Under the pieces are notes generated by a model. That model saw nothing but the letters and a program-made list of their open reading frames with translations, searched no databases and had not been told where the DNA came from. A program made the position numbers and the translations under genes. From positions 310,001 to 374,000 of the forward strand of contig CAJQUW010005278.1 of the NCBI GenBank assembly GCA_907163375.1: a stretch of 64,000 nt of DNA, read 5' to 3'. Of the stretch, positions 35,764-54,880 are shown in pieces (position 1 is the first letter of the stretch; each line of letters opens with the position of its first letter). The DNA comes from Prostheceraeus crozeri. Lineage: Eukaryota > Platyhelminthes > Polycladida > Euryleptidae.

Positions 35764-36335
35764 AGTAGTAAGTAAATCTACACCACTGGACCGCGCAAGA
35801 TGGCCGCCGTCGACCGACCTCCCCCCATTGTCAGACTAGGGCGTCGGCCCTAGTCCGCCACCTGGTTGCTTCGAGTCCGACTCCCCCCTCTGGAACGACG
35901 ACGTTGCCAGAGGTTGTTCGTGGTGCGCTCTCCAGGTTGGCGTGGTGTGCCGGCCAGGTTGGAATGGTGGAATTTCGGTGCGAGACCACTCCCATCGTGT
36001 TTCTCGTCAAAAGTTGGGTTAACAAAATTTTTTCACCCCCCCCCCTCGGCAGCGATCTTCTAATTTTGGTTCTAGTGGATGGATTTTGTCTTATAGATAC
36101 TCATTTCAAAGAGGAGAAAAAACTGCTCAATGACATTTTTATTGCGAGTCAATCGGATCAGCCGTTCAAAAGTTAGAGCTGTTACAAGATTTTAGGTCAG
36201 ACCTCAGATTTGACGAAAAAATCCTAAGTGTCAGAGCCACTTAGTATGGACAAAATTTTGAAAATTTTTCCAAAGTGTCGCATTTCGACCTGGGACCTTT
36301 ACCAAAACAGTTTTCATCAAATTTCACTGACTCCC
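35764..36335 (+). repeat. left terminal inverted repeat of the inner element
   Basis: This pairs with the complement of the right end. By eye only a handful of differences occur in the first ~280 bp, where the homopolymer C-runs also differ in length. Inside, from about 36047, is one copy of a ~285-bp sub-repeat starting CGGCAGCGATCTTC. A more diverged relative (CGGCACCGATCTTCC) continues at 36340-36480. The open frames seen here (35866-36176) recur in each sub-repeat copy and have no coding support. Confidence 0.9.
35835..35854. repeat. perfect hairpin in the terminal repeat
   Basis: ACTAGGGC-GTCG-GCCCTAGT forms an 8-bp stem with a 4-base loop. It is present identically in the right terminal repeat (58097-58116). 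It could be a protein-binding or replication-related structure, but that is inference. Confidence 0.7.
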
Positions 36336-36743
36336 CCCCGGCACCGATCTTCCAATTTCGGTTCTCGTGATCGTAGAAAGTCGTGCAATAGCTCGTTTGA
36401 AAGCTAAGAGTGAGACAAATTCAGTGAAAGAAACGGCTTGTTCATATCTGTCTTCGTTTAGATGTGAGACGCCATTTAAGATTTGGGAGATTGGCGAAAA
36501 ACGAAAAAAGTTAGAATTTCCCAAGAAACAGCTCCAGCGGGCGAACGAAGGCTCGGATTGATAAACGGAGGCCAGATTTGGAATCAGCTTGATGTTATTG
36601 TCCAATGAGGATCATCATCCCATGAGAATCAAGCATTTCTATATTAGTAGCGAGCCTTCCACAGTGAGAATCATTCCATCGTTGAATCACACGAGTGACG
36701 GACGCACATTTTCTCTCTCTCTCTATTCTATTATCCAACTAAA
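36336..36743. other. TIR-adjacent region and leader of the first inner gene
   Basis: A diverged continuation of the terminal sub-repeat runs to about 36500. Then come a CCAAT-like ATTGGACAAT in reverse and a CTCTCTCT tract just before the ATG at 36744. No gene is recognised. Confidence 0.45.
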
Positions 36744-37518
36744 ATGGTAAGTCGCTATTTCCCTCCCTCTCCTCCCTTGAACGTAAACTTAATACAATCT
36801 TTTTCATTTTCACGCATCTACTCCATCTGCTGCACTAGTAGGACAAAATGGCGGTCAAACGTTACAAGGTTCGCTACGATCAGATCATCTACAACTGAGG
36901 CCAGTGGAAGAAACAACCAAGGTACATAATCCTACACCGCTACAGCGTAAATTTAAACAAGTCTTGCGTTATGATGATCATAGCGTAGTACTCCAAACGG
37001 GAATGCTCCCTTCCACGGATGTCAAGATAATGCGCAATCAGTATGGGGACTACATACTGATCCCCGTGAGTCCGTACATTCGCCGCCAACTTGATATTAT
37101 TGAGGAGTACGTGACATTAAATATGGACATTCCTACTCCTCTTGCTCAAGAGTGGAAGGCGAGAGATGACAAGGATACTCCCTATAGAAAGATTTGGGAT
37201 GGTAATCAAATTTGCCTACCGGTATCAGATTGGTTTACTTACTATAAGAAGGAGGGAGATCATTCAGCATCCATCACATGCGACGAGCTCGGAGAAGGTA
37301 CTTGGGATATCCTTTTCAAAGTGAATGGGCTATATTATCGTCGGCACAAGGATAATAAAATAGCCTCTCTCTCCATGCATATGGAATCCATCCTATATAT
37401 TCCAAAACCACCCAACGTGGATGACATAATTGATCAAATCCTTAACAGCAGTGGTACGAAGCGCAAGTCGGAGAAGAATGCTGCCTCAAAACGCAAATCA
37501 AAGAAGGAGAATTACTAG
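36744..37518 (+). CDS. TIR-proximal unknown protein, probable spliced start
   Basis: An ATG at 36744 is followed at once by GTAAGT. A pyrimidine-containing stretch ends in ...CTAGTAG at 36841, so a first exon consisting of the start codon alone is likely. The main open frame runs to TAG at 37518 and encodes about 200 residues. It has RYDDHSVVLQTG, a predicted globular centre with PVSDWFTYYKK, and a Lys/Arg-rich tail (KRKSEK, SKRKSKK) resembling a nuclear localisation signal. The frame entered from the acceptor hits a stop within 20 codons, so either the acceptor is elsewhere or an indel is present. I do not recognise the family. Position next to the TIR suggests an early regulatory gene. Confidence 0.55.
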
Positions 37519-37552
37519 TCCTTTCCTAACTCTACCCTATGACAATTCGCTT

Positions 37553-37678
37553 ATGTGCTTTGAGTGTCGTAGACGTGGTCTTATTAGATACATTTTACTT
37601 CTTCGTTGCCATCATATCATTTGTGTATTTTGTCGTGAAAAGTATCGATGTAATTCTTCCTTTTGTAATATGTTATAG
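37553..37678 (+). CDS. small RING-like zinc-finger protein 1
   Basis: A 41-residue frame begins at an ATG at 37553. Its text shows CFEC, then LRCHHIICVFC and a further Cys pair at the end. The C-x2-C ... C-x-H-x2-C-x2-C spacing is that of a compact RING. RING proteins usually act as ubiquitin ligases. The open frame extends upstream over the end of the previous gene, so the start is uncertain. A second RING gene lies 1.1 kb downstream. Confidence 0.5.
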   Translation: MCFECRRRGLIRYILLLRCHHIICVFCREKYRCNSSFCNML

Positions 37679-37730
37679 AACGTTTCCTTAGATGTGTAAA
37701 TTTCCGTTTTAGGCTTTTATCATCATTTTT

Positions 37731-38261
37731 ATGGATTGTGAGGATGAACCTGTACAGGATCTCAGTGCTATTGCTATGAACAATTGGACATATCAGATTG
37801 TTAGTGTCTATCATCAACATGCCAACTGCGATCCCAATGTTGATCAATGGGCGAGAAAACACATTCATGGACTTAATCTGAAATATTTGCAAGACTATGG
37901 CTTTTCTTGTGACAGTGCTCTTCTTATTGACTTTAAACGATGGTTAGCTGCTTTCAATGTTATACGCATCTTTTGTAATAATCCTGGTAAGGAGAGGAAA
38001 GTATTTCCCAATCTAATCATTGATGATATTTTGCTCCCGCCTTGGGATAGTAGAGTGAATCAACACTACCATGAAGTCACGAAACGTTTTAAGGATTTGT
38101 GTGTTCCTATTTTGTCTGTTCGTTGTAGTAGCTACGTTCATAACCAATGCTTCTTTCCTCCTTACCTCAACACTGCCAAAGTCCTGTATGGTTATCATAG
38201 CTCGCTGTATGATAGTTACCAGCTGTATCTATTTTATCTGTTTCAAACCATTGATTTATAA
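37731..38261 (+). CDS. unknown 176-residue protein
   Basis: A complete frame from ATG (37731) to TAA (38259-38261). It has an acidic N-terminus (MDCEDEP) and a mixed composition rich in Tyr, His and Cys, with a conserved-looking WLAAFNVIRIFCNNPG stretch, but no motif I recognise. It lies between the two RING genes in the same orientation. No counterpart is visible because the equivalent part of the outer element is beyond the window. Confidence 0.55.
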   Translation: MDCEDEPVQDLSAIAMNNWTYQIVSVYHQHANCDPNVDQWARKHIHGLNLKYLQDYGFSCDSALLIDFKRWLAAFNVIRIFCNNPGKERKVFPNLIIDDILLPPWDSRVNQHYHEVTKRFKDLCVPILSVRCSSYVHNQCFFPPYLNTAKVLYGYHSSLYDSYQLYLFYLFQTIDL

Positions 38262-38322
38262 TGCATGCTTGTTACAGTTATTCAATAAATGTTACTATGA
38301 GAAGAGTTGTTGCTTTCATGCA

Positions 38323-38645
38323 ATGGATGGGGATTCTAAAACGACTCCGGAACATTACATTTTCATAGGCAAACTTTAAAAGGAGCTGTTCAAGATTATG
38401 TGATAAATTTTCATAAAGATGAGACCGACATCGAAGCAGTGGTCGATGATGCTAGCACTCTATTTCTAGAGTTAATGAATACATTCTCTGATAGCATTGT
38501 CATGGCGCGATTAGTTGCGAAAATTAAGTTTAGTCATTTTGGAAGGGAAGAGGTGGAAAGTCGCTCTTTCCATTTTGCTTCTTATTCAATGGAAGTGGTA
38601 GATCACCACCAAGAATTTTTTAAGACATATGATAAAAATTGCTGA
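38323..38645 (+). pseudogene. small unknown gene with a frameshift
   Basis: An ATG at 38323 opens MDGDSKTTPEHYIFIGKL and then stops. A second frame, shifted by one base, continues from about 38364 through an acidic helical segment (DETDIEAVVDDA) to TGA at 38643-38645. The two frames fit as one ~105-residue product broken by one indel near 38365. No family is recognised. Confidence 0.4.
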
Positions 38646-38738
38646 ATATCTTAACGCATTTAACTATCATGGTAGCAGTCTAGTGATTGAAGCGATTTCA
38701 GATATTCACATTCAACTTTCCATAAAGAAAAATTGAAA

Positions 38739-39047
38739 ATGCAGTGGTACTTGATTGTAGCACAACTGGTTTTCGAGCTATGCTTGCTCACTCTCGAAGT
38801 ATATTCCTTCTGTACATGCGTCTATTATTTAGAAAAGGCTAGCAAATTCATATCTTCAAAAAGACTTGCTATAGACATCAGTAACGGCGAAACTATGTGT
38901 TGTGATGTATGTAAGCGAAAGGATGGAAATGAAAAGCACATCTTCAAGACATGTAGGCATGCTTTTTGTCAACGCTGTTTCATACGTAATTGCATTCAAC
39001 TTTGCAAATGTAACCACTGTGATATTGCTCATTTCGAGTGTCACTAA
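38739..39047 (+). CDS. small RING-finger protein 2 with N-terminal hydrophobic segment
   Basis: A 102-residue protein. The first ~45 residues are hydrophobic (YLIVAQLVFELCLLTLEVYSF) and could form a membrane anchor. The C-terminal half is a RING: CCDVC, eleven residues, TCRHAFCQRC, then CKCNHC. This is the C3HC4-type order expected of a ubiquitin ligase. It might modify host proteins from a membrane, but that is inference. The ATG at 38739 is preferred over the non-ATG codon six bases upstream. Confidence 0.65.
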   Translation: MQWYLIVAQLVFELCLLTLEVYSFCTCVYYLEKASKFISSKRLAIDISNGETMCCDVCKRKDGNEKHIFKTCRHAFCQRCFIRNCIQLCKCNHCDIAHFECH

Positions 39048-39067
39048 TGCCGCAATAGTTAGTACCT

Positions 39068-39075
39068 ATGCAAAT
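39068..39075 (+). promoter_or_regulatory. ATGCAAAT motif before a virion-type gene
   Basis: A perfect octamer ATGCAAAT ends 38 bases before the ATG at 39114. It is one of six ATGCAAA occurrences at similar spacing in this element. Confidence 0.5.
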
Positions 39076-39113
39076 GTGGTAAAGACAGGTTTTAGCAAAG
39101 ATTAACACGGAAA

Positions 39114-39479
39114 ATGGCGAAACGTAAAATGACGAAACGTAAAAGTCAAAAGTCTTCAAAGTTTTCTTCAGCCATTCAAGCTCTCCGACGAATGAAAGCA
39201 AATCAGCGATACAATGCTATACGACATGCTAACGATAAATTCATTTGTGAAATTATTTCTCATGTGAGAAAGTTGAGGACGAAGAAATTAGCACCAAAAC
39301 AACGAAAGTTACTTAAGCGATATGCTACAAAATTGCGTTTCATCTCCAATCCTAAAGTCACCCTTCAAAGAAAGAGGGAAACTCTAACACAAAAGGGCGG
39401 TTTCCTTTCAGCAATGCTTCCGATGTTAGCTCCTGTCCTGGGTAACCTATTGGGTAATATCTTTGGCTCTAAACGTTAA
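39114..39479 (+). CDS. small basic protein with hydrophobic Gly-rich tail (Polinton-associated)
   Basis: This 121-residue protein is very rich in Lys/Arg (MAKRKMTKRKSQK). It has a helical KLAPKQRKLLKRYATKLR segment and ends QKGGFLSAMLPMLAPVLGN plus a Gly/Phe tail. The basic-then-hydrophobic layout recurs in many animal Polinton/adintovirus-like loci next to capsid genes and fits a small DNA-binding or membrane-active virion protein. A Q-x-G-G motif precedes the hydrophobic tail and resembles the sites cut by adenain-type proteases. Function is inferred from composition and context. Confidence 0.65.
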   Translation: MAKRKMTKRKSQKSSKFSSAIQALRRMKANQRYNAIRHANDKFICEIISHVRKLRTKKLAPKQRKLLKRYATKLRFISNPKVTLQRKRETLTQKGGFLSAMLPMLAPVLGNLLGNIFGSKR

Positions 39480-39481
39480 TT

Positions 39482-39489
39482 ATGCAAAT
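39482..39489 (+). promoter_or_regulatory. ATGCAAAT motif before the ATPase gene
   Basis: A perfect octamer starts 29 bases before the ATPase ATG at 39511 and lies just after the stop of the preceding gene. Confidence 0.5.
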
Positions 39490-39510
39490 TTTGAATCTCA
39501 AAGTATTATA

Positions 39511-40128
39511 ATGGATTTCAGACTTCAATGTGATAAAGTTCTGACTGTATCAGGTCCATCCCATGCAGGTAAAACTGTTTTCACGCTGAATTTATTGGAT
39601 AAAAGAAAAGAGTTGTTTAAGGAACCTATCAATCGAGTGATTTGGTGTTATGGTATTTATCAACCGTCGCTGTTTCAGGAATTGCAAAGTCGCAACTTTA
39701 TTCGACATGAAGGAATTATTCCAGTGGATAGACTTCAGTCTAATGATGTTGTTGTATTGGATGATTTATTAAAAGAAAGTAAGAATTCCAAAGATGTTAC
39801 AGATATGTTCACTCGCGCAGCACATCATAAAAGGTGCCTTATCATCTATATCACACAAAACTTGTTTCCTGATGGAAAAGAAGCTCGTACACGAAACCTG
39901 AATACACACTGTTATGCTATTTTCAAGAATCCGCGAGATAAAAGTCAATTTGAAATTTTAGCGCGACAAGTTGCACCAAGAGGATCAAAAGCCTTAATTG
40001 AAATTTTTCAAGCAGCTACTGAAAAACCATATGGTTACTTATTCATTGACTTTACGCAAAAGTGTCCGGAAGAATTTAGATTTCGAAGTGATATTTTGAA
40101 AACTCCCATGATTATCTACAAACTATGA
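39511..40128 (+). CDS. genome-packaging ATPase (A32/FtsK-HerA type)
   Basis: This 205-residue P-loop protein has Walker A GPSHAGKT near residue 16 and Walker B NDVVVLDDLL near residue 85. These are followed by a HHKRCLIIYITQNLF strand with the sensor Gln/Asn typical of the FtsK-HerA superfamily. Such ATPases pump DNA into preformed capsids in Polintons, virophages and large DNA viruses. The length matches Polinton ATPases. The start at 39511 is chosen because it follows the octamer motif and the previous stop at 39479. The stop overlaps the next ATG by four bases (ATGA). The gene is intact. Confidence 0.9.
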   Translation: MDFRLQCDKVLTVSGPSHAGKTVFTLNLLDKRKELFKEPINRVIWCYGIYQPSLFQELQSRNFIRHEGIIPVDRLQSNDVVVLDDLLKESKNSKDVTDMFTRAAHHKRCLIIYITQNLFPDGKEARTRNLNTHCYAIFKNPRDKSQFEILARQVAPRGSKALIEIFQAATEKPYGYLFIDFTQKCPEEFRFRSDILKTPMIIYKL

Positions 40129-40811
40129 GTTCTTATTCTCGCATGATTGTTATTCCTCAGGATGAATATGTACAATTGACTGCCATGCAGCAAGTAAAGC
40201 AACCTCTTGTAAATCAAATGTATAGGAAAGAAATAGATTATCAGCAAAATGTTCACATCAAAGATCCACATCGTGATGTATTATTACAATCGGAAACTGT
40301 TGAGCAATTGAAAAACTTGAAGAATATGATGCGTGACTCTGTATCGACTGCTACTTCTTTAGCATCTCGCGCACATGCCATATCTCTTTTCAATAGTATT
40401 GAACCCCATCTCAATGTAAATGATAGAGGAGAAATCATTACAGATGAAAATAAAGTGATTGATGCTTCACGTTATGAAGACTTGATTCAGTATGCGACAC
40501 GTAGAAAGCGCCGTCAGGGCTATGTTCCACCTGGTTGGACATACTTTCTTAAACTATTGAAAAAGCATAATGTGCCAAAATTTGCTTTAAATAATGAGAC
40601 ATTGAAAGAACTTGATTCAGCAGTGGCTACTGCTCCAATGCGTCAGACGATGAAAATGCCAACAAATTGGTTTAAGACGTCACCTACATCCCCTCCCACA
40701 CTCACTAAGCAAACAAGAGGAAGAACTCGACGTAGATCTACGCCGCCACTAAAACTAGTAAAAGGAAAACGTAAAACAGCTCCTCCTAGGAAATACATGT
40801 TCTCAGACTAA
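40125..40811 (+). CDS. conserved unknown Polinton-associated protein
   Basis: This 228-residue protein overlaps the ATPase stop by four bases. The N-terminus reads MIVIPQDEYVQL. The middle is helical and rich in Asn and Glu, and YVPPGWTYFLKLLKKHNVP lies near residue 135. The last 60 residues are Lys/Arg/Pro-rich, consistent with nucleic-acid binding. I recall similar MVLIPxEEY...VPPGW proteins beside the ATPase in animal adintovirus-like loci, but no function is established for them. No damage is seen. Confidence 0.6.
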   Translation: MSSYSRMIVIPQDEYVQLTAMQQVKQPLVNQMYRKEIDYQQNVHIKDPHRDVLLQSETVEQLKNLKNMMRDSVSTATSLASRAHAISLFNSIEPHLNVNDRGEIITDENKVIDASRYEDLIQYATRRKRRQGYVPPGWTYFLKLLKKHNVPKFALNNETLKELDSAVATAPMRQTMKMPTNWFKTSPTSPPTLTKQTRGRTRRRSTPPLKLVKGKRKTAPPRKYMFSD

Positions 40812-40812
40812 T

Positions 40813-41028
40813 ATGAAGCAGTTGTGTTGCTTACCATGTAATGAGCCGCCAGAGGTGAATGTCGTTGTCACTTGCACTTGCTGCGCCAGCTCTCACAATG
40901 AAACCCCTAAGCAATGTGAACACGATCGCAAAACCGCTAAAGCTAAATGCTGTAGCTGTTGTAAATGTAGAAAGGCAAGAAAGCAAAAAGATGAGAAGGA
41001 GGAAAAAGAGTCAGTCGTCATCGACTGA
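40813..41028 (+). CDS. small Cys-rich protein overlapping the integrase start
   Basis: A 71-residue frame begins one base after the preceding stop and shows a repeated Cys pattern (CCLPC, CTCCA, CCSCCKC) ending in a charged KDEKEEKE tail. The density of CxC/CC pairs suggests metal binding. It overlaps the first codons of the integrase frame by 38 bases in another frame. Tight spacing with its neighbours supports it as a real gene. No family can be named. Confidence 0.5.
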   Translation: MKQLCCLPCNEPPEVNVVVTCTCCASSHNETPKQCEHDRKTAKAKCCSCCKCRKARKQKDEKEEKESVVID

Positions 41029-42079
41029 GCGTTTGAAGTCAATCTATTATGATGTAAAACATCCAGCAGGATTTGCATCGATCAGGAAATTGTCAAAAGC
41101 GAGTGGTCTTCCACAATCACAAGTGAAACGATGGTTAAAGGGTCAGGCTACCTATACACTCCACAAACAAGCGAAAAAGAAGTACCGCACCCGCCATTAT
41201 ATTGTTCATGACATCGATGAACAGTGGCAAGCAGATTTGTGTGATGTCGCCTCCATTTCAAAACATAACTCGGGCAATAATTTTATTTTAACCGTCATTG
41301 ATATTTTCTCGCGTTATGCGTGGGCTCAACCTTTAAAAACTAAAGAAGGGAAAGGAGTAGCAAAAGCATTCCAAACAATTTTTCGAGAAGGCCGCATTCT
41401 AAAAAGAATTCAGAGTGATCAAGGAAAAGAGTTTGAAAATCAGCATGTGAGAAGATTATTTGAGAGGCATGACATTGAGTTGTTTAGTGTAAAGAGTGCT
41501 TATAGAGCTGCACTCGTTGAACGTTTTAATCGCACATAAAAAAATCGCTTGTGGCGACATTTTACTGCCAACTTGACACAAAATTGGACAAAGGTTCTAC
41601 AAGATACACTCCATGCCTACAATCACTCTATCCATCGTTCTATTGGACTCAGACCAGTAGATGTAAATGGTGACAATTTAGATAAAGTGCGCAAATCATT
41701 CCAACGTAAACGCACTCATGTGAAAAGTGATATGAAAATTGGTGATTAAGTTCGTATCTCAAAAGTGAAAAGTGTTTTTGCTAAAGGGTACCTTCCGAAT
41801 TGGACAGAGGAGGTATTTACAGTATCAAGGATTAATCAAAAAGACTCTCCCACCACCTACAAGTTGAAAGATTACGATAATGAAGAAATTGAGGGTAGCT
41901 TTTACCGCGATGAGATTGAGGTAGACACTGAAAGTGAAACATATTTGGTAGAGAAAATCATTCGATGTAAAAAACGGCAAGGTGAAGAATGGTGTCTTGT
42001 TAAATGGACTGGTTATCCTTCAAGTATGAACTCTTGGATGTGTCGTGCCGACATCTTTCATCTAAGTGATCGACAGTGA
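40991..42079 (+). pseudogene. int: retroviral-type integrase with chromodomain, two nonsense codons
   Basis: The N-terminus is basic with a helix-turn-helix-like segment (IRKLSKASGLPQSQVKRWLK). The rve catalytic core has D in QADLCDV, D in QSDQGKEF and E in ALVERFNRT, with the DD35E arrangement. The C-terminus carries an SH3-like KVKSVFAKGYLPNWTEE region and a chromodomain (YLVEKIIRCKK...LVKWTGYP...NSW). It inserts the element and makes the 6-bp duplication. TAA at 41537-41539, just after the catalytic Glu, and TAA at 41747-41749 disable it; aligning with the outer copy shows sense codons at both places. The start at 40991 is the in-frame ATG closest to the conserved part; 40859 is an alternative. 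Confidence 0.92.
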
Positions 42080-42082
42080 TTC

Positions 42083-42090
42083 ATGCAAAG
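42083..42090 (+). promoter_or_regulatory. ATGCAAAG motif before the pVI-like gene
   Basis: ATGCAAAG ends 30 bases before the ATG at 42121. It is part of the recurrent upstream motif set. Confidence 0.45.
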
Positions 42091-42120
42091 TTGTAACTAA
42101 CAATGTTTAGGGTTTGAGCT

Positions 42121-42576
42121 ATGAATCCAACTGCCTCATTTTATTCACGACCCTCCTATGTAAGTGGTGGAGGACAAATTCACATCGGCGCTCGCCGCCA
42201 ACGTGGAGGTAGCATACTTGGTGCACTGAAATCTGTTGTAGCACCTCTCATATCCAATGTCGGAAGATCTTTAAAACGAAATGTTTTAAGTAATGCCGTT
42301 GGCTTTGCTGGTGATGTTGCTAGTGATCTTTCCAGAGGTAGAAGTTTTAAGAGCAGTTTGTTGAATCGTGGGAAGGAACGCGGTTTAAAAATATTGAAGC
42401 AGACCTTTGCTGGTGTTACTCAAGGAAAGAAATCGCCTAAACGAATGAATAAAGGAAGAAGGAAACATTGCGGAGCTGGTAAGGTGCGATCTTCAGTCAA
42501 CAGGCATTCACGCAAACGTCACAGAGGCTCTAATCATTCATCAGGCGCTAAACGACGACGCTGCCATAACTTCTAA
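42121..42576 (+). CDS. basic pVI/pX-like minor virion protein
   Basis: This 151-residue protein starts with FYSRPSYVSGGG, followed by RRQRGGSILGALKSVV, an amphipathic helical stretch, and a strongly basic tail (KRHRG, KRRRC). The QRGG-S site just before the amphipathic helix resembles the point where adenain-type proteases trim adenoviral pVI-like membrane-lytic proteins. The outer homologue at 61234-61716 has the same layout. It lies immediately before the capsid gene (two bases). Role inferred: membrane-active or DNA-condensing core protein. Confidence 0.7.
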   Translation: MNPTASFYSRPSYVSGGGQIHIGARRQRGGSILGALKSVVAPLISNVGRSLKRNVLSNAVGFAGDVASDLSRGRSFKSSLLNRGKERGLKILKQTFAGVTQGKKSPKRMNKGRRKHCGAGKVRSSVNRHSRKRHRGSNHSSGAKRRRCHNF

Positions 42577-42578
42577 TC

Positions 42579-43856
42579 ATGGAGTGTAAAACTTCCGGGT
42601 TTTGTTTGTTTAATCAACAAGCCATACAGACAGATATTTTTAGTTCAAGTATTGTAGATTATCATCCTCGAACAGCTGAGAATGCTGGTCTCATTGAATT
42701 TGTTATTCCTGATGGTAGTGATGACTACATAGATTTGAGTTATGCGATGGTTGATTTGAGGTTTAGAATTCAGCAAGCAGATGGAACTGCTATTGACGAT
42801 ACACATAAAGTTGGACTGAACAATTTACCATTGACTACATTATTTCGCGATGTTTCTCTAACGATTGGAGAGCAGCAGGTGGAAGGTGGTCAAAGCGATT
42901 ATCCCTATAAATCATATTTCAATCATGTATCACAGTTTCATCCAGCAGCACAAAAAAGTCATATGGAAGCCATGGGATGGTACAGAGATGAAGCAGGAAA
43001 ATTTGATGCTGAAACAAACAGTGGCTTTGTAAAGCGATCTGCTATGATTAAAGATAGTAAAGTATGTCAGCTATATGGTCCGCTGAATTTAGACTTTTTT
43101 AGACAGTCAAAGTTTTTACTCTGTAATACCAGCATGCGACTCAAGCTGACATTGAATAAGCCTGAATTTGCGCTGAATGCATTTGCTAAAGTTGACAATT
43201 TTAGAATTCATGTGGAAGATATTGCACTTTACATTCGTCGAGTAGTACCGAATCCAAGTGTCATTAGAGGACATGCTGAAGGTCTTAACCGCCAAAATGC
43301 CATTTACCCCGTTCAGCATACAAAGCTTCTCACCTTTACAATTCCGAAAGATCAAAAGAGTTTCATGAAAGATTGCCTCTTTCCATCGAAAGCACCGAAA
43401 CTCCTCATGGTGGCAATGGTTGAAAATGATGCATTTAATGGTAATATAAAGAAGAATCCTTTCAATTTTAAACACAATCAGTTAAGTGAAATTGCTCTAC
43501 GTGTAAATGGTGTGAGTCATCCTGGTCCTCCCTACAAACCACATTTTTCTACGGATCAATTTATGCGCAGTTATGGTGATTTTATGGATGTCTTTGGTTT
43601 GTACAATACGGATGACACCAACAGACTCACTATGAAAGAGTTTAAGAGTGGATATACTATTTATGCATTTGATTTGACTGCTGACAGCAATTTTAGTGCA
43701 CCTTATCGTCAAGCGAACGTGCCTCATAATATTCGTTTGGATTTGATGTCCAAAAGAACACTACCTGAGACGATCAATGTATTAATTTATGCAGTCTTCG
43801 ATTCAAACATTGAAATTACAAAGTATCGTGACGTGATGCTTCAGTATAATCGTTAA
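42579..43856 (+). CDS. candidate major capsid protein (F54H12.2-like family)
   Basis: This 425-residue frame is intact. It matches a family widespread in animal genomes and usually annotated F54H12.2-like. It has QTDIFSSSIVDYHP near residue 16, a DDYIDLSYAMVDLR strand, VGLNNLPLTTLFRDVSLTI, YPYKSYF, RRVVPNPSVIRGHAEGL and a NPFNFKHNQL motif around residue 297. Two similar all-beta halves are compatible with a double jelly roll. It sits between the pVI-like gene and the protease, the usual position of Polinton capsid genes. Its last base overlaps the next ATG (TAATG). Capsid identity is inferred from context and fold expectation; I have not checked a structure. Confidence 0.8.
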   Translation: MECKTSGFCLFNQQAIQTDIFSSSIVDYHPRTAENAGLIEFVIPDGSDDYIDLSYAMVDLRFRIQQADGTAIDDTHKVGLNNLPLTTLFRDVSLTIGEQQVEGGQSDYPYKSYFNHVSQFHPAAQKSHMEAMGWYRDEAGKFDAETNSGFVKRSAMIKDSKVCQLYGPLNLDFFRQSKFLLCNTSMRLKLTLNKPEFALNAFAKVDNFRIHVEDIALYIRRVVPNPSVIRGHAEGLNRQNAIYPVQHTKLLTFTIPKDQKSFMKDCLFPSKAPKLLMVAMVENDAFNGNIKKNPFNFKHNQLSEIALRVNGVSHPGPPYKPHFSTDQFMRSYGDFMDVFGLYNTDDTNRLTMKEFKSGYTIYAFDLTADSNFSAPYRQANVPHNIRLDLMSKRTLPETINVLIYAVFDSNIEITKYRDVMLQYNR

Positions 43857-44317
43857 TGAGTTGGTTGACTGCTGACGATATTAAGACTAAAGTGCAGCGT
43901 AATGCAGATGAAGCGACGTTGAAAGCTTTCGATAATGTCTATTCACTCGATGCCTTACCACCTTCAGTAAATCACTATCCTATCTTTATTGTGCTAAACA
44001 CTCATTCGCAGAATTTAGGCGGTGAGCATTGGAAAGCGATCTTTATTGCAGAAGACCGACGTGGTGAACTATTTGAATCTCTTGCTCAACCACCAAATAT
44101 ATCAACACAGTAGTGGTTGAGAAAACATACGCGTCAATATCAGCGAAATGAACGCATACTACAACATCCACTTTCATCAACGTGTGGTGCTTTTGTACTG
44201 TACTTCATCTTAAAACGTTTACATGTATCTCGATTTGTATCTGTTATTCAAAACTTTTCATGTGATCCATCCTCTAATGAAAAAATGATTTGTAGGTTCT
44301 ATCATGATTTGAAATAA
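43856..44317 (+). pseudogene. pro: adenain-like maturation cysteine protease, one nonsense codon
   Basis: About 150 codons. The catalytic His lies in GGEHWKAIFI, an acidic residue follows in ELFESLAQP, and the catalytic Cys is in LSSTCGAFVLYF, the order and spacing of the adenovirus protease family (C5/Ulp1-like). TAG at 44111-44113 interrupts the frame between His and Cys. The outer copy has a sense codon there, so this is a nonsense mutation. The enzyme would process virion precursors such as the QxGG-bearing basic proteins. The 3' end overlaps the convergent TBP-like gene by 60 bases. Confidence 0.88.
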
Positions 44318-44887
44318 AAACATAATGTTGGAAAAATTGTTTTTTATTTTACAATCCGCTGGGTACGTACACTCGATGAGATAGTCCAGGATCACATTTG
44401 CTTGTACATGAGATTTTAGTCCAGTAATGATCACTTTACTATTATGAAAGATTGCAACATGCACAGGTAACCAACAACTAATGAGAGCTGCAGGAAAAAG
44501 TTCGGGTTCATAACACAAATTGTAACTGCTGGTACGAATCTTCAAAAATGATACACTTTCACTCAATTGAGTGGAGATCACCATATTGTCCACAGTCAGA
44601 TTCGACATCACACACCTCTCCCTCTTCCATATCCGACGTAGTAGTCTTTGTAGCTCTAAGCGCATTGACTGCGCCGATGAATGAGAAAGGGCGCCGAGAA
44701 TCTGTACAGTCCCATTTGGGAAGAGTTGAAGATTCCGTGAATTGTTCATCTTCACCACTAACATTTGAGGTCGGCCCGGGTAATACTTGCTGTTTGGAAG
44801 GTGTTGGTGTAATGTTGTGAGATCGATTTTGGTGTAGAGTCTGAAGCGACGGAGAATGTTGACGATGGTGTAGCGATGGCGCTTCAT
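44258..44887 (-). CDS. TATA-binding-protein homologue (viral TBP-like)
   Basis: This 209-residue protein has two repeats of the TBP saddle. Repeat 1 has NLQLFPNGTVQILGA near residue 52. Repeat 2 has the diagnostic YEPELFPAALISCW, followed by HVAIFHNSKVIITGLKS near residue 150. Cellular TBP has YEPELFP and an (I/L)IF.SGK.V.TGAK strand in the same places. The Phe in each strand sits where the TBP phenylalanines kink the minor groove. A TATAAAA box lies 37 bp upstream. The outer element has an intact homologue in the same position (58802-59371). It is likely to act in transcription of the viral genome. The frame is intact, with a C-terminal extension beyond the saddle. Confidence 0.85.
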   Translation of the reverse strand: MKRHRYTIVNILRRFRLYTKIDLTTLHQHLPNSKYYPGRPQMLVVKMNNSRNLQLFPNGTVQILGALSHSSAQSMRLELQRLLRRIWKRERCVMSNLTVDNMVISTQLSESVSFLKIRTSSYNLCYEPELFPAALISCWLPVHVAIFHNSKVIITGLKSHVQANVILDYLIECTYPADCKIKNNFSNIMFLFQIMIEPTNHFFIRGWIT

Positions 44888-44923
44888 GATAAAAAAATGA
44901 GTAAATTGAGCGATGTACCTTCC

Positions 44924-44930
44924 TTTTATA
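44924..44930 (-). promoter_or_regulatory. TATA box of the TBP-like gene
   Basis: On the minus strand TATAAAA (in GTATAAAAGGA) lies 37 bp before the ATG at 44887, at the usual pol II distance. A related GTATAGAAG stands just after the duplicated neighbour gene at 45300. Confidence 0.6.
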
Positions 44931-44936
44931 CTTTTC

Positions 44937-45209
44937 TCAACTACCTTGATGAAATGTGAAGTTAGTATGGAGTTGGGAATGATAGAGTTGAATTCGCCGT
45001 TTGTTCACGCGTAACCATATGCGATTTCCAATACGTGAATGTCTTTTCATATAGAAGTATTTCAAATCCTTCATGATATGATGTAGAGATTGAAAATGAC
45101 GAAAAGATAAAGCAAACTCTCTTCTCACATTTCCAGTTGAATCTTTGAAATAGACGTTTCGATCATGATCCGTTTCAATACGCTGTAGGGAATCTAATTT
45201 CCAACTCAT
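44937..45209 (-). CDS. small duplicated protein upstream of TBP-like, copy 1 (possibly PC4-like)
   Basis: A 90-residue intact frame. The text WKLDSLQRIETD, NVYFKDSTGNVRREFALS, FQSLHHIMKDLKYF and GNRIWLR suggests a short beta sheet followed by a helix. This faintly recalls the PC4/Sub1 transcription cofactor fold (strands, then ISL...W..L...I). The similarity is weak and not proof. A second copy lies just upstream (45276-45587). A perfect minus-strand ATGCAAAT (45237-45244) stands 27 bp before the ATG. The outer element has a comparable frame directly before its TBP-like gene. Confidence 0.55.
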   Translation of the reverse strand: MSWKLDSLQRIETDHDRNVYFKDSTGNVRREFALSFRHFQSLHHIMKDLKYFYMKRHSRIGNRIWLRVNKRRIQLYHSQLHTNFTFHQGS

Positions 45210-45236
45210 GGTGAGTGGTAGTCATGTCTGATTAAG

Positions 45237-45244
45237 ATTTGCAT
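45237..45244 (-). promoter_or_regulatory. ATGCAAAT motif before the small duplicated gene
   Basis: A perfect octamer on the minus strand ends 27 bases before the ATG at 45209. Its orientation and spacing agree with the plus-strand copies. Confidence 0.5.
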
Positions 45245-45275
45245 GGTAGGGCGATGAACTCACGACGAATAAATG

Positions 45276-45587
45276 TCATGATGGAGCGATGTATGTATCT
45301 TCTATACTTCTCCCAATTGTATTTGCGAAATGAGAAGCAGTTGCGGAATGAGAATGGCAGATTTGAATTTCATTGTTGCGACGTTGAATCCAAACTTGAT
45401 CACCCAAGGAGATGAATCTTAATGTTTCAAAATATTCCAAATCCCTCATGATATCATTGAGGTTGACAAATTGTCGCCATGTTAATGTAATACCTCTTCA
45501 TGTATGACCATGAGAATTTTTGAAATGTACGTTTCCATCACGATCAACTCTGATATATTGTAGAGAGTCCAAAATCCAAGTGTTCAT
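45276..45587 (-). pseudogene. small duplicated protein, copy 2, with TGA
   Basis: This 103-codon frame is paralogous to 44937-45209: shared WILDSLQYIRVD, GNVHFKNSHG, NLNDIMRDLEYF and a GDQVW strand. TGA at codon 30 (45498-45500) interrupts it. The duplication also covers downstream sequence, since GAGAAGTATAGAAG and TACATCGCTC recur after both copies. The ATG at 45587 is only 35 bases from the divergent ATG at 45623, so they share one promoter region. Confidence 0.6.
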
Positions 45588-45593
45588 GATGTT

Positions 45594-45601
45594 ATGCAAA
45601 G
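45594..45601 (+). promoter_or_regulatory. ATGCAAAG motif in a divergent promoter
   Basis: ATGCAAAG ends 21 bases before the + gene at 45623. It lies within the 35-base space to the divergent minus-strand gene. Confidence 0.45.
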
Positions 45602-45622
45602 CCGCAGATCAGCAATATCAAA

Positions 45623-47022
45623 ATGTCGTTTTATCATATTTTGCTTAGCAATGCGGCCACAAAGAGATATGCTAATAATCGAGCCGCACTCTTTTCTACA
45701 CCCATTGATCATACACAACAGCTAAATGGAAAGTGGGAAGTGGGTATCACTCAACTTGTTCATAGCAACTGTGTCTATACTTTTAATCATGAAGTGATGA
45801 CTATTAATATGAGACGCACAGCTGCTTACCAATGTGAAAAGGGCTGCCGAGTATACATTCCACAGTGGCCAAAGAAAGATCTCTTATCATGTAAAAAGTT
45901 TATATATGATTTCCTGAATAAAGCGTGTAAACATATTGTCCAATTTACTCCGCACAATGATGATCACAATTATGTACATCATGTAGTTGAGAAAGATTGG
46001 ATTGTTGGTTTAAGTCCAAGTTTAAGAAATGATTTAGGTTACCTCGCTAGCGCCTTAACAAGCTATGATAATTATAACGTTAATTACCACCCAAGTGGTC
46101 ATAAACAGTTAATATATCGAGAGGAAGCTTATTATGTAGATCTTATTCCAAGAAATGAGAAGACGTTGGTGAAGAAGATTGTGATTAAGCCAAGAAAGAC
46201 AAACATTACTCCTGAAACATTATTGAAGAAATTTAATTATCTCCTTCGAGTTGATGGTGAACAAGTGGCAACATTGACTTATATCAAATCATCTAATCAT
46301 ATTGCAATAAGTAAATTAAATGATGATGATCTAGTATTAGTTTGTTCAAAAGATTTTCATCAGTTCTTACGACATCGTTCTGCAGCTGTTCATGGAAAAT
46401 TTGATATGCAACATTTGCCATGTGAAAGGTCAAATCAATTTGATACAGAATGGACCGTATCTTTATTCAGAAAGTGTGTAGAGCCTTTAGGTGGTATCTT
46501 ATATGAAACAAGAGTGTTGATGCCTCGGCATTATTACTTCAGTTAAATTGGTTGTAGATTATTTAAATGAAGTGATTAATGAGCAACATATTTCATTTTC
46601 TGTAAAAAAATGTGCTTTTGTCTCTCACTATAAGTGGAAAAGGTATTGAACTAATTATGGATAAAACTCTAATGGACATTTTGGGTTTTGATCAAAATAT
46701 CTTTAAAAGTGGTACTGTAACCAAAGCTAGCGCAGACATGTCGCTATCGCGTCGTATTAACTATTTTCAGATATATTCCAATATTGGTGAAGATGTACGT
46801 GTGGGAGATGTTGAAGCTCCATTGCTAGCAATGATACCATACCAGCCAAAAAGCTGCAGTATTTTATCTGAGCATACTTTCAAGACAGTGCATTATACAA
46901 AGCTGAAATCAAACTACATCCCACAAATTGATATTGCAATTTATGACGATGCTAGTGGGTTAATTCCTTTTCATAAAGATGCTGTGACAAGTATCACACT
47001 CCATTTCCGAATGAAGAGTTAA
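45623..47022 (+). pseudogene. putative virion protein, WEVG family, paralogue 1 (frameshifted)
   Basis: The N-terminal module has SNAATKRYANNRAALFSTPI and LNGKWEVGITQLVH, a signature of a protein found beside capsid genes in many animal adintovirus-like loci. The long middle is beta-rich. The C-terminal part carries LMDILGFDQ, VRVGDVEAPLL and an IPFHKDAVTSITLHFR end. A frameshift near 46545 separates the last ~160 codons (46549-47022), so it is broken. The second gene at 47062-48619 and the outer gene at 61854-63329 share the layout. A penton, spike or fibre role is plausible but unproven. Confidence 0.65.
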
Positions 47023-47029
47023 TGCAAAA
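47022..47029 (+). promoter_or_regulatory. ATGCAAAA motif before paralogue 2
   Basis: ATGCAAAA ends 32 bases before the preferred ATG at 47062. It overlaps the end of the preceding gene. Confidence 0.4.
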
Positions 47030-47061
47030 GTATGCTAATATATTTTTCCAATGTGAATAAT

Positions 47062-48619
47062 ATGGAAAGTGAAAATAAGGACTCGTTTCTAATCTACTTA
47101 CCCAGTAATGCTTCTATGAATAAATTTCCCAATAATAAACCATCAGACTATCGAGTAGAATTAAATCGTCCATTTCTTCTAGAAGGTGAATGGGAAGTAG
47201 GTGTTTCCAGCATTTGCTATGATAGCAATATTCAGAATGTGAATGATGTGGAAGAAATGATATTGACTCCTCGCACCCATGATGGAATAACGATGAATAA
47301 TGCATTCCAGTTCCCATACAATTTGACATCAGATGGAAAGTGGAACTATGAATGGATTCAGATAAAATCAGATTATTATGGTCCATTTGGGAATGAGAAA
47401 ATTATTAAGGCGTTCAATAGTGGTAATACTTCCATCATGAAGAATAAGGATCAGAAAGTTTGTGAGTTTACTATCTATCATTGGAGTGGGAGACAGTTCC
47501 TTTGCTTTCATTCTTTTACTAAAGGTCTTACACTGAGGTTGGATAATGAATTCTATCCACATCTTGGTTTTGGCCATGGACTACATCTAACGTCAATTGC
47601 TACTGCAAATGTTAAAAAAGTTTATTCAAATCAAATCAACAAATTTCATTATAAATTTAAAATATTTGATGAATATGTTGTAGAATGTGAAGAACGCATC
47701 ATTTTGAAAAAGCGTGGTGTTCAACCTTTATCACTTATTGAGTTAGTAAACGATGGAATGAGACTGTGGGTAAGAAGTATGGAGAGAAAATTATGGCGGA
47801 CAAAAATAAGTTGGTTATTCAGAAATATAATGACAAACTTACAGTTTATTTCTCTCCAACCTTGCGTCATTTTGTAAGACATTATACGCCTATTATTGGA
47901 AGCGGTGTGGTGTATGCTTCTCATGAATATCGCACTAATTCTGATTTAGTTAATGATGAATGGTGGGTGGACATCTATGGTGATCGCATCAAGAATATTT
48001 ACCAGTCTTATGAAGAATCTAAAGTTGCTATCAATATAATGCCGCGCCCATATCATATAGTTGAAAGCTTCATTCATGTAGTAAATCCTTATAAACAACA
48101 GAAGTTGAAGCATGTGATGAAAAGTAAATATGATGTAAAGACACACCACATTTCGTTTTTAATTGAAAATCAACGCGTTGTTCTGAAACTGGGTGATGAC
48201 ATTCAATGTCAATTGAGTAAAAATTTGAAAAAACTCTTTGGTTTTTCAATGCTACAAAATATATTTACTGGTGCGCAAACGATTGGTATAGAAACACCTA
48301 TGACACTTGATAAACATGAACAACACCTTTACATTCAAAGTGATTTGATTCTACCTATTTCTGTTGGCGAGGAAACGAATACATTTTACGTGATTTCATT
48401 CATGATAAGGATGTTTTATATGGAATAGTCGAGATGTTTCAACCTATTTTCTACCATCCTGTTATCAAACAAACTATACCCTCTATTTCTATCAAAATTA
48501 CAAATGGTCTACATGAGTGCATCCATGTCAAACATACTAAATCCCTCGTAACTTTAGTGTTTCGGAAAACAAAGCGAAGTCATTGTGATATGTTTATTGA
48601 AATAAAAATATGTGTATGA
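47062..48619 (+). pseudogene. putative virion protein, WEVG family, paralogue 2 (two frameshifts)
   Basis: The N-terminus has YLPSNASMNKFPNNKPSDYR and LLEGEWEVGVSSICY, the same module as the preceding gene but with a clearer SN-S...FP.N pattern. The second frame (47766-48428) includes LGDDIQCQLSKNLKKLFGF. The third (48434-48619) gives the C-terminal end with LVTLVFRKTKR. Frame changes near 47800 and 48390 break the gene. It is a tandem, diverged duplicate of 45623-47022. A poly-A signal AATAAA lies at its very end. Function unknown. Confidence 0.62.
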
Positions 48620-48755
48620 AAAAGTCTTTTCACAGATATAGGGGAATGGGCTGACTGTAGGCATACATTCACAAGGAAGAAACAATCTAATGCGATACAT
48701 AAAACAACCATGTATATCTACAAAAAGCAACATCAAAATACTGAGTTAAAGTTGA

Positions 48756-51700
48756 TTATGTCAATACATCTCCTGAATGTGGTAGCGTGAGTTTTATTCT
48801 TTTGGGTGGAGGTATGTTTGTGTCAGGATGTCCATGTGGAAGAGATGTGTTATGTCCTATCCAACACCTCTTATCCTCCCATGCTGAAAGCGCTCGTTTC
48901 TTAAATGTGTACGTTTTCACAGTATGAACTTGAGATTTTAAGATTGTCATATTGACAAACGTTATAGTTTTATTTTTATAGGCCTTCTTATAGGACCGAT
49001 GTTTCATTTTGTGAACAATGGATTTTGATATACCTTTAGCACGCTTAATACTATCTGCACATTCTTTTAATTTCATGGAATACATTTTAGGACGGAGGAG
49101 AATCATTTCATCTATTTCCTTTCCTGCTGTTTCATCCTTAAAACAACCAAGTTTGGCTTTATTCTGTATGGAATAGAGTGGATGAGTGGGATTGTAGTTA
49201 GATGTGTCGAAATATTTTTCTAATGACTTGCCTACTTCATTAAAATTTAAATCTTTTTGAGTGGTAATTCCTAAAAAGAAACTATCTGTATCACCACCCA
49301 GCAGGCGAACCTCTTTTACGAGAGGGCATGGTTTTAATATTTTGTAGAAGAGTTGATACATTTCAAGCTTGGAATAATCTAAAACGGCTTGCCCAATATA
49401 GATGGGTTTGCACAACTCAACTTCTGATTTTATCATTTTAACACCTACAATGTCCTCATCGATAATGTCTCTATCGATGAATATAGGTGATGAGGTCAAT
49501 TTGTGATATTTTTGATCATCAGTGACTAGTTTATAGTTTACACGTTTTCTAACATACTCCATCGTCTTTCCGAAAAGACTATTATTCTTATACTTATAAA
49601 AATCTTTTTCAAAATTATTTTGGGCGAGTAGACGTTTCTGGCTGTTACTATCAATATATGGTTTGAGGAAGGCTTTCTGTCTAAATTTGATGATGCGGTG
49701 AACTGACTTTAGAAGAGTGCCCATTTCTAAATAGAATTTTAGTATGCAGAAGTGCACGAGATAATTTTTCTTATCATATATGGTCAGTAAAAGTTTGCGG
49801 CATGGTTTGTACCTTGGCTGTCCACACTCTGTTAAGTTATTATGAAATTGTGACATGAATGGTGAAAACATATCTTCAGTCACTTCACCAGATTCAGGTG
49901 CGAGTGGGAAATCAGCAGTTTTATTTTTGATACTATTTGGATAAATCAAATCCACTTCAAAATAATATCCCCAATCACCTTCATCTGGAATCTTCAGTAT
50001 GTTTGAAGGGTTGGAGTAATACTCAAGCTCATCTTGTTTTGACCAACTAAACTCGGAATGAGGTAGTGGTTTAGACAGTGAACTGCCATATAAATTATTT
50101 TGGTCATAGTACTTTAGGTGGATATGATCATTACCTACTGTTTTAGATTTTATATGATGTTTATTTACAAATGTGAGACCACCGCATATTCCTCGCTCAA
50201 ATATGTTATACATCTCCGGGTCTTGTAAGAGATGGATGGTCTCACCAGTCATTTTAAAGGCTGATTTAAAGGACATGGCTGGTAGACTGACAAAGTGGAC
50301 AGGATCTAATTTGTCTTCTTCTAATGCCACTCGTCGAAATTCATGAAAGACATCAGCCAGCAAAATGACATCTAATTCTAAGTAAACGATCATAAGTAAA
50401 CGATCACGCCAAACGTTTCACAATCAAATTTTGTCCATGCCTCTTGAGCATGTTCATAGTCCTCTACTGGACAATCTTCACCCGTCAAATCGTTTTGGAA
50501 TTTGTCAATGGAAGGAAGGGTTGTTTCATTTAGTTTAGACATTGAGCTAAAATACGCATGGGGAAAGACTCCTTTGCGAGTGATCATGTCATCTGTTAAG
50601 TTTGGATAGTGTTTCTTCAAAGTTTGACTATGGGGAAGAAACTTGAGATTTCGAACGAGAGAAGCTAGTGACGCTGACATGAATTGAAATGAATCTAAAA
50701 ATTTTATTTCGAAGAAGACTGTCTTATTTTCTTTAGTTTTATCTACTGGTACTTTTGCTGTCATTGCCATGAATTTTTCTCCCGTTTGCGCTATTACATT
50801 AAATTGCCACGATTTCATCTGGCTCAACCCTCCTTTTATGAGCACATGACTGTCATAGCCCTTAAAGTTATGAAAAATGACGGGTAGTACACGACGTCTC
50901 AACCTAAGTGAAAAGTTACATTTAGAGCAGAGTGCGTTTCTAAATTTACCAGTGATATGATCATGATCACGCACTTTCTTAATTTTATCGTCATCAAACG
51001 TTTTATGACATTTAGGGCACGATGTGCAACTTTCAAATTTTTGTTTGTCTTCATCTGACATATGTAGTGACTTACGTTGCAATTGGGAATCATATTATTG
51101 CTGAAATTTGGCAGCTTTATTGAGATATTCTAGAAATTTTGAAATACAATCTTCACCTTGCCAAGTATGCATTTTGTTTTGCCTATTCCTAAAGTGGTCA
51201 TGCCATACTTCATAGCAGCATATGGCTGCTGGCTTGTGGATGTTATCATCAATGTAGCATTCGATGTCTGCGTAAATGACACGCAGGGGACTTAATTCGT
51301 CACCATTATCCCTATGTGAAAATATTTTATCTTTGGGCATGCGTTCCATTTGTAATTTACTTCGCTTGCACCATTCATAATGAGTTTCAAATTTATGTTT
51401 ACTCCAAAAGGAGCGGATGCAGCGGTCGCATACAAAATGTTCACCACTTTTAGAGTGTCCCAAGTGTGTATACAAGCGAGAGATTTTGGGAATACCACAG
51501 TAGTGCCATTCCTCGCTATCATCTTGTTTTACTAATAAGAGGTTGACTACACGTTCATAACAAGTTGAACGTGAATTATGGCGGGCACCCTTCAACCCCT
51601 TCTCCCACACGTGAACTACAATTTTAATCTGATTATGTTTCTCGAACGTTTCTACATCTTTGATTTTCATGTTGTCACTATCACAACCTTCAAAGTCTAG

Positions 51701-52739
51701 TTCATCCTCCCACTGTCTATAGCTATAGGTGCGATCTCGATGCGCGTTGATATCATTATAGTGGAGAATGGATAGGACGGCATATTTGAAACACTGCGAT
51801 TCACAATCGACATTGATGACAGCTTTCTTATTATACAACGTTTTTGGTAGTTTAAATGTGCCTCGAGTTGCATGACTTTCTAATAGGGAAATTTTGAATA
51901 TGGCTGAGTCCATGCCATCAAAAATGAGAGCGCTGTCGCGCTGATTGAACTTATCTACATTTGATTTTAAACATTGAATATGGAAATTTAGCCAAGACTC
52001 GCAGTCTACAACTTCGGTTGCGGAAGAGGAAGGAACATGAAACTGTATTCCCTCCATCACTTGACCCGTTTGAAAATCTATTTTAATATATTTTAGTTTG
52101 AGGTAGATGAGCGCCTTCATTCTAAAATTGTCTAAATTGTTGAAGAGCGCTTCGATAATGTTAGAATTTTGAAGGAGCCACTCAGGAAAATCTACTATTT
52201 GAGTATTGGACTCCATGCAGTAGTCGCGTACTAAATGAATATGGGGAAACGTTAATGAAGGAGATTGTAGAGGTACCGTAGGTGTAGTGATCATTTGCAT
52301 GCGTGTGTTGAAGTCTGTGCGAAGATCGCTGAAAGGAGCTATCGAAAGAAAGAGGGCACAAATCACAAGGAAAGGAGATGTCATCGTCAGAATCAACTTC
52401 ACCTCCGGAGATTGATGCCGCTTTGCGTTGACACACACGTTGTTTGATCTGTCGAAGGAGACTGTGCTTCCTTGTAAAAATATGTCCGCAGTGAGCACAT
52501 TCCCACTCGTTGCCTTGTCGCGAGAGTCATGAGCTGGAACTAACATCACCTGAAAGAGAAATCATTCTATCATCTCTGTTCAAGTCTCAGTGTATTGTTA
52601 CAACCTACCTTCACTCAACAGCTCTAAACTTTCCTCCAGAAGGGAGGGCTTTGGTGATGAAGTAGATGCCTGAAATTGAGGAAGATGCTATTAGCCACAC
52701 GTTTGAGGGAGATGAGAGAGGAAATCTTCAACTTACCAT
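48756..52739 (-). pseudogene. polB: inner element family B DNA polymerase, spliced and broken
   Basis: Exon 1 is just the ATG (52737-52739). It is followed by intron 52670-52736, exon 2 52609-52669, intron 52550-52608 and a long exon. N-terminal zinc fingers (ECAHCGHIF; FPCDLCPLSF) are in the frame predicted by the splicing. Then come a CFKYAVLSILHYND module, exonuclease YADIEC, HNFKGYDSH and YLELDVILLAD, an embedded RDHDHITGKFR zinc motif, and polymerase motifs NNLYGSSL, KNNSLFG and GGDTDSFF. Damage: TGA at 52527-52529, a frame change near 52300, TAA at 51095-51097, and a 14-bp tandem duplication near 50390-50412 that shifts the frame in Exo III. The outer copy is collinear. It is transcribed against the late genes, as usual for Polintons. 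Confidence 0.93.
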
Positions 52740-52803
52740 TTCAAGGAAATTATGTTTAAGGTTGATTTTTCAACAAGATAGAGACTTCACTCAAATAATA
52801 CGT

Positions 52804-52896
52804 CTCAAATTTGGAATTCACGAGAGAGCAGTTCACTTGTACGCCTCAAATATAGAATTCGCTAGAGAACAGTTCACTTACACGTCTCAAATAGAG
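52804..52896. repeat. 41-bp tandem repeat in the PolB leader
   Basis: Units start CTCAAAT at 52804, 52845 and 52886 with a 41-bp period and contain GAATTC...GAGA..CAGTTCACTT. They lie between the PolB start and a minus-strand TATATA at about 52913, so they would be transcribed in the 5' leader. They also lie upstream of the divergent gene at 53017. Confidence 0.75.
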
Positions 52897-53016
52897 TGAA
52901 ATGACACTTTGCATATATACTTTCATATTCATCATTCATTGGCTGTTCATTATGATTGGTTGCTTGTTTATACTTAAGAATTAGAAAACATTTCAAAGTT
53001 ATTATTCACAGTCAAC

Positions 53017-54840: not shown

Positions 54841-54880
54841 CGTGACTTAAAATTGAATGAGAAGCGCTACAATCTTCTGG

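Follow-up and report, generated by a model that had tools for sequence, protein, structure and literature searches.

We analyzed a stretch of 64,000 nucleotides (the window, with position 1 as its first letter), which is very probably animal genome DNA, because it contains the C-terminal part of an inward-rectifier potassium channel (IRK_C, 4e−47). Two Polintons were recognized in the window, one nested in the other, and the insertion point of the inner one coincides with the end of the DNA polymerase B (PolB) frame of the outer one, where the 6-bp target duplication is clean. The inner element was delimited as follows:

35764..58187 (no strand): inner Polinton, 22,424 bp, nested in the outer one, from inverted repeats and target duplication
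35758..35763 (+): left target-site duplication GGTGAT, 6 bp, from the ends read
58188..58193 (+): right target-site duplication GGTGAT, 6 bp, from the ends read

The inverted repeat arms lie within 35764–36330 and 57345–58187, with matched stretches that are 94–98% complementary. Among the traits by which Polintons/Mavericks are recognized, terminal inverted repeats with a 6-bp duplication were established in the inner element, which also encodes an rve integrase with a chromodomain (in two pieces) and a double-jelly-roll major capsid protein (MCP), a similar MCP piece being present in the outer element. In addition, each element carries a homologue of the TATA-binding protein (TBP), and the genes considered below are:

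39463..40128 (+): inner ATPase-like gene (PHROG ATPase, 0.0019)
40859..42079 (+): inner integrase (rve, 5e−10) with chromodomain (Chromo, 3.4e−7), broken by stops
42579..43856 (+): inner MCP, double jelly-roll by predicted structure
43850..44317 (+): inner protease frame with one in-frame stop, convergent with the TBP and overlapping its 3′ end
44258..44887 (−): TBP homologue of the inner Polinton (P0001, 209 aa), by Pfam TBP match
48756..52549 (−): inner PolB, in pieces, sharing its strand with the inner TBP
31916..35775 (+): outer PolB, in pieces, sharing its strand with the outer TBP
58802..59371 (+): TBP homologue of the outer Polinton (P0002, 189 aa), an open frame (Pfam PF00352, 47.8 bits)
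59560..59982 (−): outer protease, convergent with the outer TBP and resembling the inner protease
59940..61223 (−): outer MCP, three pieces, the first similar to the inner MCP

The span of the inner integrase holds two stops, and its two open pieces were searched separately. The predicted structure of the inner MCP (pLDDT 88.3) matched double-jelly-roll capsids, with those of PBCV-1, Sputnik, an iridovirus and mavirus among the best 50 matches. Profile matches stayed below the cut-off for the inner ATPase-like gene against Pox_A32 (0.041), for the inner PolB against DNA_pol_B_2 (0.0023, without a relevant PDB match) and for the outer protease against Peptidase_C48 (0.028), while GDTDS, which we take to be a PolB motif, was seen in PolB by eye. 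Endonuclease-VII-like matches were also obtained in PolB pieces of both elements (50390–51082, 1e−6; 31916–34327, 2.3e−5), the latter piece giving weak C2H2 zinc-finger matches below the cut-off as well. Decay is partial in both elements: besides the single stop within the inner protease frame, PolB and integrase are fragmented, and the outer MCP is split in three.

Both TBP frames were present where the preliminary description had placed them, with the signatures YEPELFP and IFHNSKVIITG in P0001 and YEVELFP and VFHNGKIVITG in P0002, and the TBP homology that it had proposed was borne out by profile searches, as both proteins exceeded the gathering cut-off of the Pfam TBP family (PF00352, 22.9 bits; P0001, E 3.4e−20, 72.1 bits; P0002, E 1.3e−12). 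The best PDB match of P0002 reached 7.5e−5 (phmmer), and a comparison of the outer TBP family profile with a cellular TBP profile gave a probability of 96.7. The saddle fold was predicted for the inner copy, the only one modelled, as a two-lobed structure with low confidence around residues 121–140, and comparison of this model with known structures, like the sequence searches, gave TBP matches; for the outer copy the fold would be suggested by the profile comparison. Each protein (189–209 aa) consists of a single TBP domain. The earlier wording of two-repeat proteins holds at the profile level, where two stretches were matched in each, and in the fold of P0001, but by sequence the internal repeat is weak (53 of 1000 shuffles were as good for P0001 and 694 of 1000 for P0002, not significant), and the two-fold repeat thus rests on the profile and, in P0001 only, on the fold. 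When all six-frame pieces of the window of at least 25 aa were searched with profiles of both families and of cellular TBPs, P0001 and P0002 were the only matches at E ≤ 10. The last ~35 residues of P0001 diverge from its relatives (by eye). Taken jointly, identity and residence leave us with very little doubt that P0001 and P0002 are TBP homologues resident in Polintons.

The TBP gene lies at the same place in both elements, convergent with the protease (in the outer one the protease ends at 59560 and the TBP at 59371), as had been noticed at the outset, and in both it is found on the PolB strand, opposite to MCP, protease and integrase. The outer TBP had also been described as intact among broken neighbours; this is true with regard to the MCP, whereas the outer protease also has an open frame. 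Between the elements, the TBPs are 31% identical, to be compared with 40% for the MCP (first outer piece, over 164 positions), 38% for the protease (first inner piece, over 79 aa) and 36% for PolB (one piece, over 373 aligned positions). The TBP is best explained as a long-resident gene of an animal Polinton lineage, and its site, strand and divergence parallel those of the core genes in the two elements, as would be expected had it been passed down vertically from an ancestral element common to both.

This arrangement also bears on the possibility that the TBP frames are captured host TBP-related genes (TRF or TBPL type) with no role in the element, a reading for which it can be said that TBP is a host protein and that its origin is unsettled in a tree lacking TRF and TBPL, but which we regard as highly improbable because the TBP is conserved, its site being shared by elements with core genes 36–40% identical, its divergence being about equal to theirs, and 29 relatives forming one distant clade. 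Next to the inner TBP lies a small gene (44937–45209, −), followed by a broken tandem second copy (45276–45608, −; 37% identity over 49 residues). A PC4-like gene beside the TBP, suspected by eye, was discarded, as it gave neither a Pfam PC4 nor a PDB match and the candidates of the two elements are dissimilar.

Database searches returned 61 relatives of P0001 and 15 of P0002, with no protein id occurring in both lists and none named by source. PF00352 is carried by all 76 of them, and the Pfam TBP model matched 59 of the 59 family members scanned in the alignment (4 short ones of 63 lie outside that alignment). The tree was built from 29 of the 78 Polinton-type proteins, 4 cellular TBPs and 9 of 12 IMG/VR TBP loci (L002–L013, found by scanning viral contigs with cellular TBPs; L004, identical to L003, L007, a near-copy of L005, and the partial L012 were dropped), and it covers neither TRF, TBPL nor named giant-virus TBPs. 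All 29 Polinton-type proteins fall on one side of a branch with a support of 100/100 and a length of 2.41, while six of the nine IMG/VR TBPs group near the cellular ones, from which the Polinton clade stands apart with a far greater divergence. The root and the sister group of this clade are unsure because L005, L009 and L011 have long branches and L009 may be drawn towards it.

Judging from their sequences, the relatives are presumably Polinton-borne themselves. Scans of viral contigs with P0001, the P0001 family, the outer TBP family, the MCP or PolB recovered no relative. The MCP family (an alignment of the query with 35 of the 120 listed among 229 relatives) recovered, from genome contigs, one distant piece in a bacterial MAG (L001, 3.6 kb), in which no TBP match was found. 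This contig, labelled Ignavibacteria, holds a Polinton-like MCP piece (29%) and, by eye, protease-, ATPase- and PolB-like frames, and is probably a eukaryotic contaminant. A linkage of one TBP relative (P0009) with one MCP relative (P0137) through contigs of equal size (both 7106) was set aside as too weak, since 1 such pair was found vs. 0.14 expected among TBP contigs of at least 4 kb, and 2 vs. 0.67 among all sizes, one pair coming from different sources.

In order to see which surfaces of TBP are kept, 62 proteins of the P0001 family and 16 of the P0002 family were surveyed in yeast numbering, counting residues where a letter was present, at the 16 TBP positions listed in PMC12529657. The TFIIB residue is printed there as E184, whereas the glutamates of YEPELFP are numbered 186 and 188 here, and these were used. 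P0001 keeps 2/8 N-lobe and 6/8 C-lobe positions, and P0002 keeps 3/8 and 5/8. Across the families, F116, F207 and P191 are kept in 78/78, F190 and T215 in 77/78 and N69 in 52/52, as are the stirrup glutamates on the TFIIB side (E186 in 77/78; E188 in 75/78, with D in the other three). On the N-lobe, F99 is replaced by P (60/61), A101 by M (70/70) and V122 by Q (77/78), and T124 is lost in 78/78 (L or V). Thus three of the four intercalating phenylalanines of a canonical TATA-reading TBP are kept (F116, F190, F207), and because F99 is replaced, the proteins were assigned to the TBP family and not to the canonical TATA-reading TBPs.

The C-lobe is not untouched either, as L205 is kept in 0/78 and N159 and V161, kept in 62/62 of the P0001 family, are changed in 16/16 of the outer one. 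The change of the N-lobe also differs between the families, since L114, which is Q in 58/62 of the P0001 family, is kept in 16/16 of the P0002 family. Human E191 and R205, which we take to be TFIIA contacts, are kept in 0/60 and 3/73, respectively (where a letter is present, on the N-lobe side). As the N-lobe replacement is uniform across the family, it would speak for a changed and selected DNA face rather than for decay. With the glutamates kept, E191 and R205 lost and the N-lobe face replaced, the Polinton TBPs look able to hold TFIIB, are unlikely to make the usual TFIIA contact, and look built for reading something other than a standard TATA box.

When compared with known systems, the Polinton proteins share with cellular TBPs (human 1cdw, yeast 1ytb, Methanocaldococcus 2z8u) the core length, the two-lobed saddle, three of the four intercalating phenylalanines and the YEPELFP stirrup with its TFIIB-side glutamates, yet are only 19–23% identical to the human core (12 aligned) and differ in the N-lobe contacts (F99P, A101M, V122Q, T124L/V) and in the loss of human E191 and R205. 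The herpesvirus parallel drawn in the preliminary description holds in part. According to PMC12529657, KSHV ORF24 (UL87 family) is likewise a TBP-like fold, with altered, more polar DNA contacts, encoded by a nuclear DNA virus itself, but it has several domains and at least 752 residues, keeps 4/8 N-lobe and 2/8 C-lobe positions and lacks the TFIIB glutamates. The pattern is therefore the reverse one, the Polinton TBPs retaining more of the C-lobe together with the glutamates and ORF24 more of the N-lobe without them, and the Polinton proteins are neither large multi-domain proteins nor devoid of these glutamates, as UL87/ORF24 mimics are. With the TBPs of Nucleocytoviricota and mirusviruses (PMC10132985 and PMC4602308) they share the residence of a TBP gene in a eukaryotic DNA virus, the difference being the large genomes of the latter.

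Polintons/Mavericks and adintoviruses agree with the present elements in terminal inverted repeats, 6-bp duplication, chromodomain integrase, double-jelly-roll capsid and PolB- and protease-like genes, and differ in that TBP goes unmentioned in PMC8097293 (vertebrate Mavericks), PMC10120064 and PMC11071308; the terms TATA and TBP have 0 occurrences in the main texts of these three and of PMC8363768 and PMC9683012. Titles and the beginnings of abstracts in the Polinton, adintovirus, Maverick and virophage literature contained no report of a Polinton TBP, most subscription papers lying outside the search. In the parts available, TBP or TATA is mentioned with respect to mirusvirus-like elements (PMC10675990), mirusviruses (PMC10132985) and algal giant viruses (PMC4602308), and in PMC12220804, PMC11640650, PMC7786948 and PMC6972860 only with reference to the cell, to viruses or elements of other kinds, or as part of a primer, title or surname. 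TBPs in viruses are thus already known, the Polinton being a new kind of carrier and its TBP a new variant, and the literature negative is not proof.

The regions upstream of the element genes were scanned for promoter elements, with the following candidates:

44922..44930 (−): candidate TATA box TATAAAAGG, 43 nt before the inner TBP start codon, from the upstream scan
39068..39074 (+): ATGCAAA, candidate core element, −46 of ORF 39114
39482..39488 (+): ATGCAAA, candidate core element, −29 of the ATPase start at 39511
42083..42089 (+): ATGCAAA, candidate core element, −38 of ORF 42121 (the ORF before the MCP)
45238..45244 (−): ATGCAAA, candidate core element, −35 of ORF 45209
45594..45600 (+): ATGCAAA, candidate core element, −29 of ORF 45623
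47022..47028 (+): ATGCAAA, candidate core element, −10 of ORF 47032

By a rough estimate, a match of the TATAAAAGG type is expected by chance somewhere among the 17 upstream regions. In the TBP frame this stretch spells SIKG, which recurs at an equal distance from the start in a longer database ORF of the relative P0004; this hints either at conservation of the box or at a more upstream start of the protein. ATGCAAA on the sense strand precedes six of 21 inner ORF starts by 10–46 nt (60 nt upstream considered; starts chosen by hand, PolB pieces among them), with 0/21 on the antisense strand and 0/21 in the first 60 nt of the ORFs, and six of the nine copies between the inner repeats sit at such upstream places. 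When all starts were shifted together 2000 times, a 7-mer common to at least six starts was obtained in a fraction of 0.0005 (at 60 and 80 nt), in a test that is exploratory, the word having been noticed before testing. The same test was not significant for 6-mers (0.061 at 60 nt, 0.23 at 80 nt) or 8-mers (0.21 and 0.41), and over the window ATGCAAA is not enriched (22 seen vs. 23.5 expected). No copy precedes the 6 outer starts examined, and L001 has none; the inner MCP and protease have no copy of their own within 60 nt, the MCP having ACGCAAA at −69. Five TATA-like patterns were absent from the 120 nt before the six ATGCAAA-bearing ORFs.

ATGCAAA before the six inner ORFs (39068–47028) may accordingly be a core-promoter element, a host octamer site or a product of chance, the word matching the greater part of the octamer bound by host POU factors. 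That it is such a site or accidental, with the viral TBP acting on another sequence, is a substantial possibility, if somewhat short of an even chance: three of the six sites read ATGCAAAT in full, and the test was post hoc, not significant for 6- or 8-mers and without enrichment over the window, but the sites stand 10–46 nt ahead of start codons and are accompanied by none of the five TATA-like patterns.

The best explanation overall is that the diverged resident TBP probably acts as an element-specific promoter factor, and from the surfaces retained it is rather likely that as a promoter factor it recruits TFIIB. In the mechanism that we propose, the viral TBP would be made early, from the PolB strand, would bind a core element other than the standard TATA box, bending its DNA through the C-lobe phenylalanines and the remaining N-lobe one, and would dock host TFIIB and Pol II, by which the element's own, mainly structural, genes could be transcribed with no need for TFIID or TFIIA from the host. 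Its targets would most naturally be sought among late structural genes, and its use on late genes seems to us close to, if slightly short of, an even call. The earlier proposal, in which late promoters are governed by a TBP that the elements themselves encode, is plausible, the sole promoter evidence being the exploratory motif in one element; the presence of a much altered TBP in each element suggests that the elements, rather than the host, select the genes to be expressed from them. A more specific version is a two-step programme, in which a host-type TATA box would drive the viral TBP early and the viral TBP would read the GC-containing ATGCAAA core and hand the genes to host TFIIB and Pol II, as a separately evolved equivalent, reduced to one protein, of the late pre-initiation complex of herpesviruses; this version is put forward tentatively and is doubtful in its full extent.

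Alternatively, the protein could be a competitor that occupies host TFIIB or TATA boxes and so damps host transcription, which would agree with TFIIB-facing glutamates that are kept while the N-lobe changes. We consider this unlikely, as retention of the TATA-reading face would be expected of a damper that acts on host TATA boxes, whereas the N-lobe has fixed a new set of residues, and as a regular motif stands before several ORFs of the element (an exploratory result). It is less probable still, indeed very unlikely, that the TBP steers integration to promoters or Pol III genes via TFIIB- or BRF-like factors. TFIIIB guides the integration of some retrotransposons, the element encodes an integrase, and the TFIIB-type contact surface is kept; however, the integrase already has a chromodomain, a likely targeting module, and the single insertion seen is located inside another Polinton, at the end of PolB, and not at a host promoter.

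Large viruses and herpesviruses are known to encode TBPs, and a frequent proposal makes Polintons the stem from which many eukaryotic DNA viruses arose. A conserved TBP in Polintons of ~20 kb would show that even small elements can take charge of Pol II initiation at its first step, the uniform replacement of the DNA face would be a natural experiment in TBP specificity, and the protein would offer a handle on when and how Polinton capsid genes are expressed.

Further features were noted in the window. An N-terminal stretch 'LxGxWEVG', or a variant of it, is common to the proteins of 45623–46546 and 47032–47877 (inner) and 63021–63356 (outer), which are possibly virion proteins. A 203-nt repeat is present in three tandem copies inside the inner Polinton (53460–54072), and an open mariner-type transposase frame of 351 aa was found at 21429–22484.
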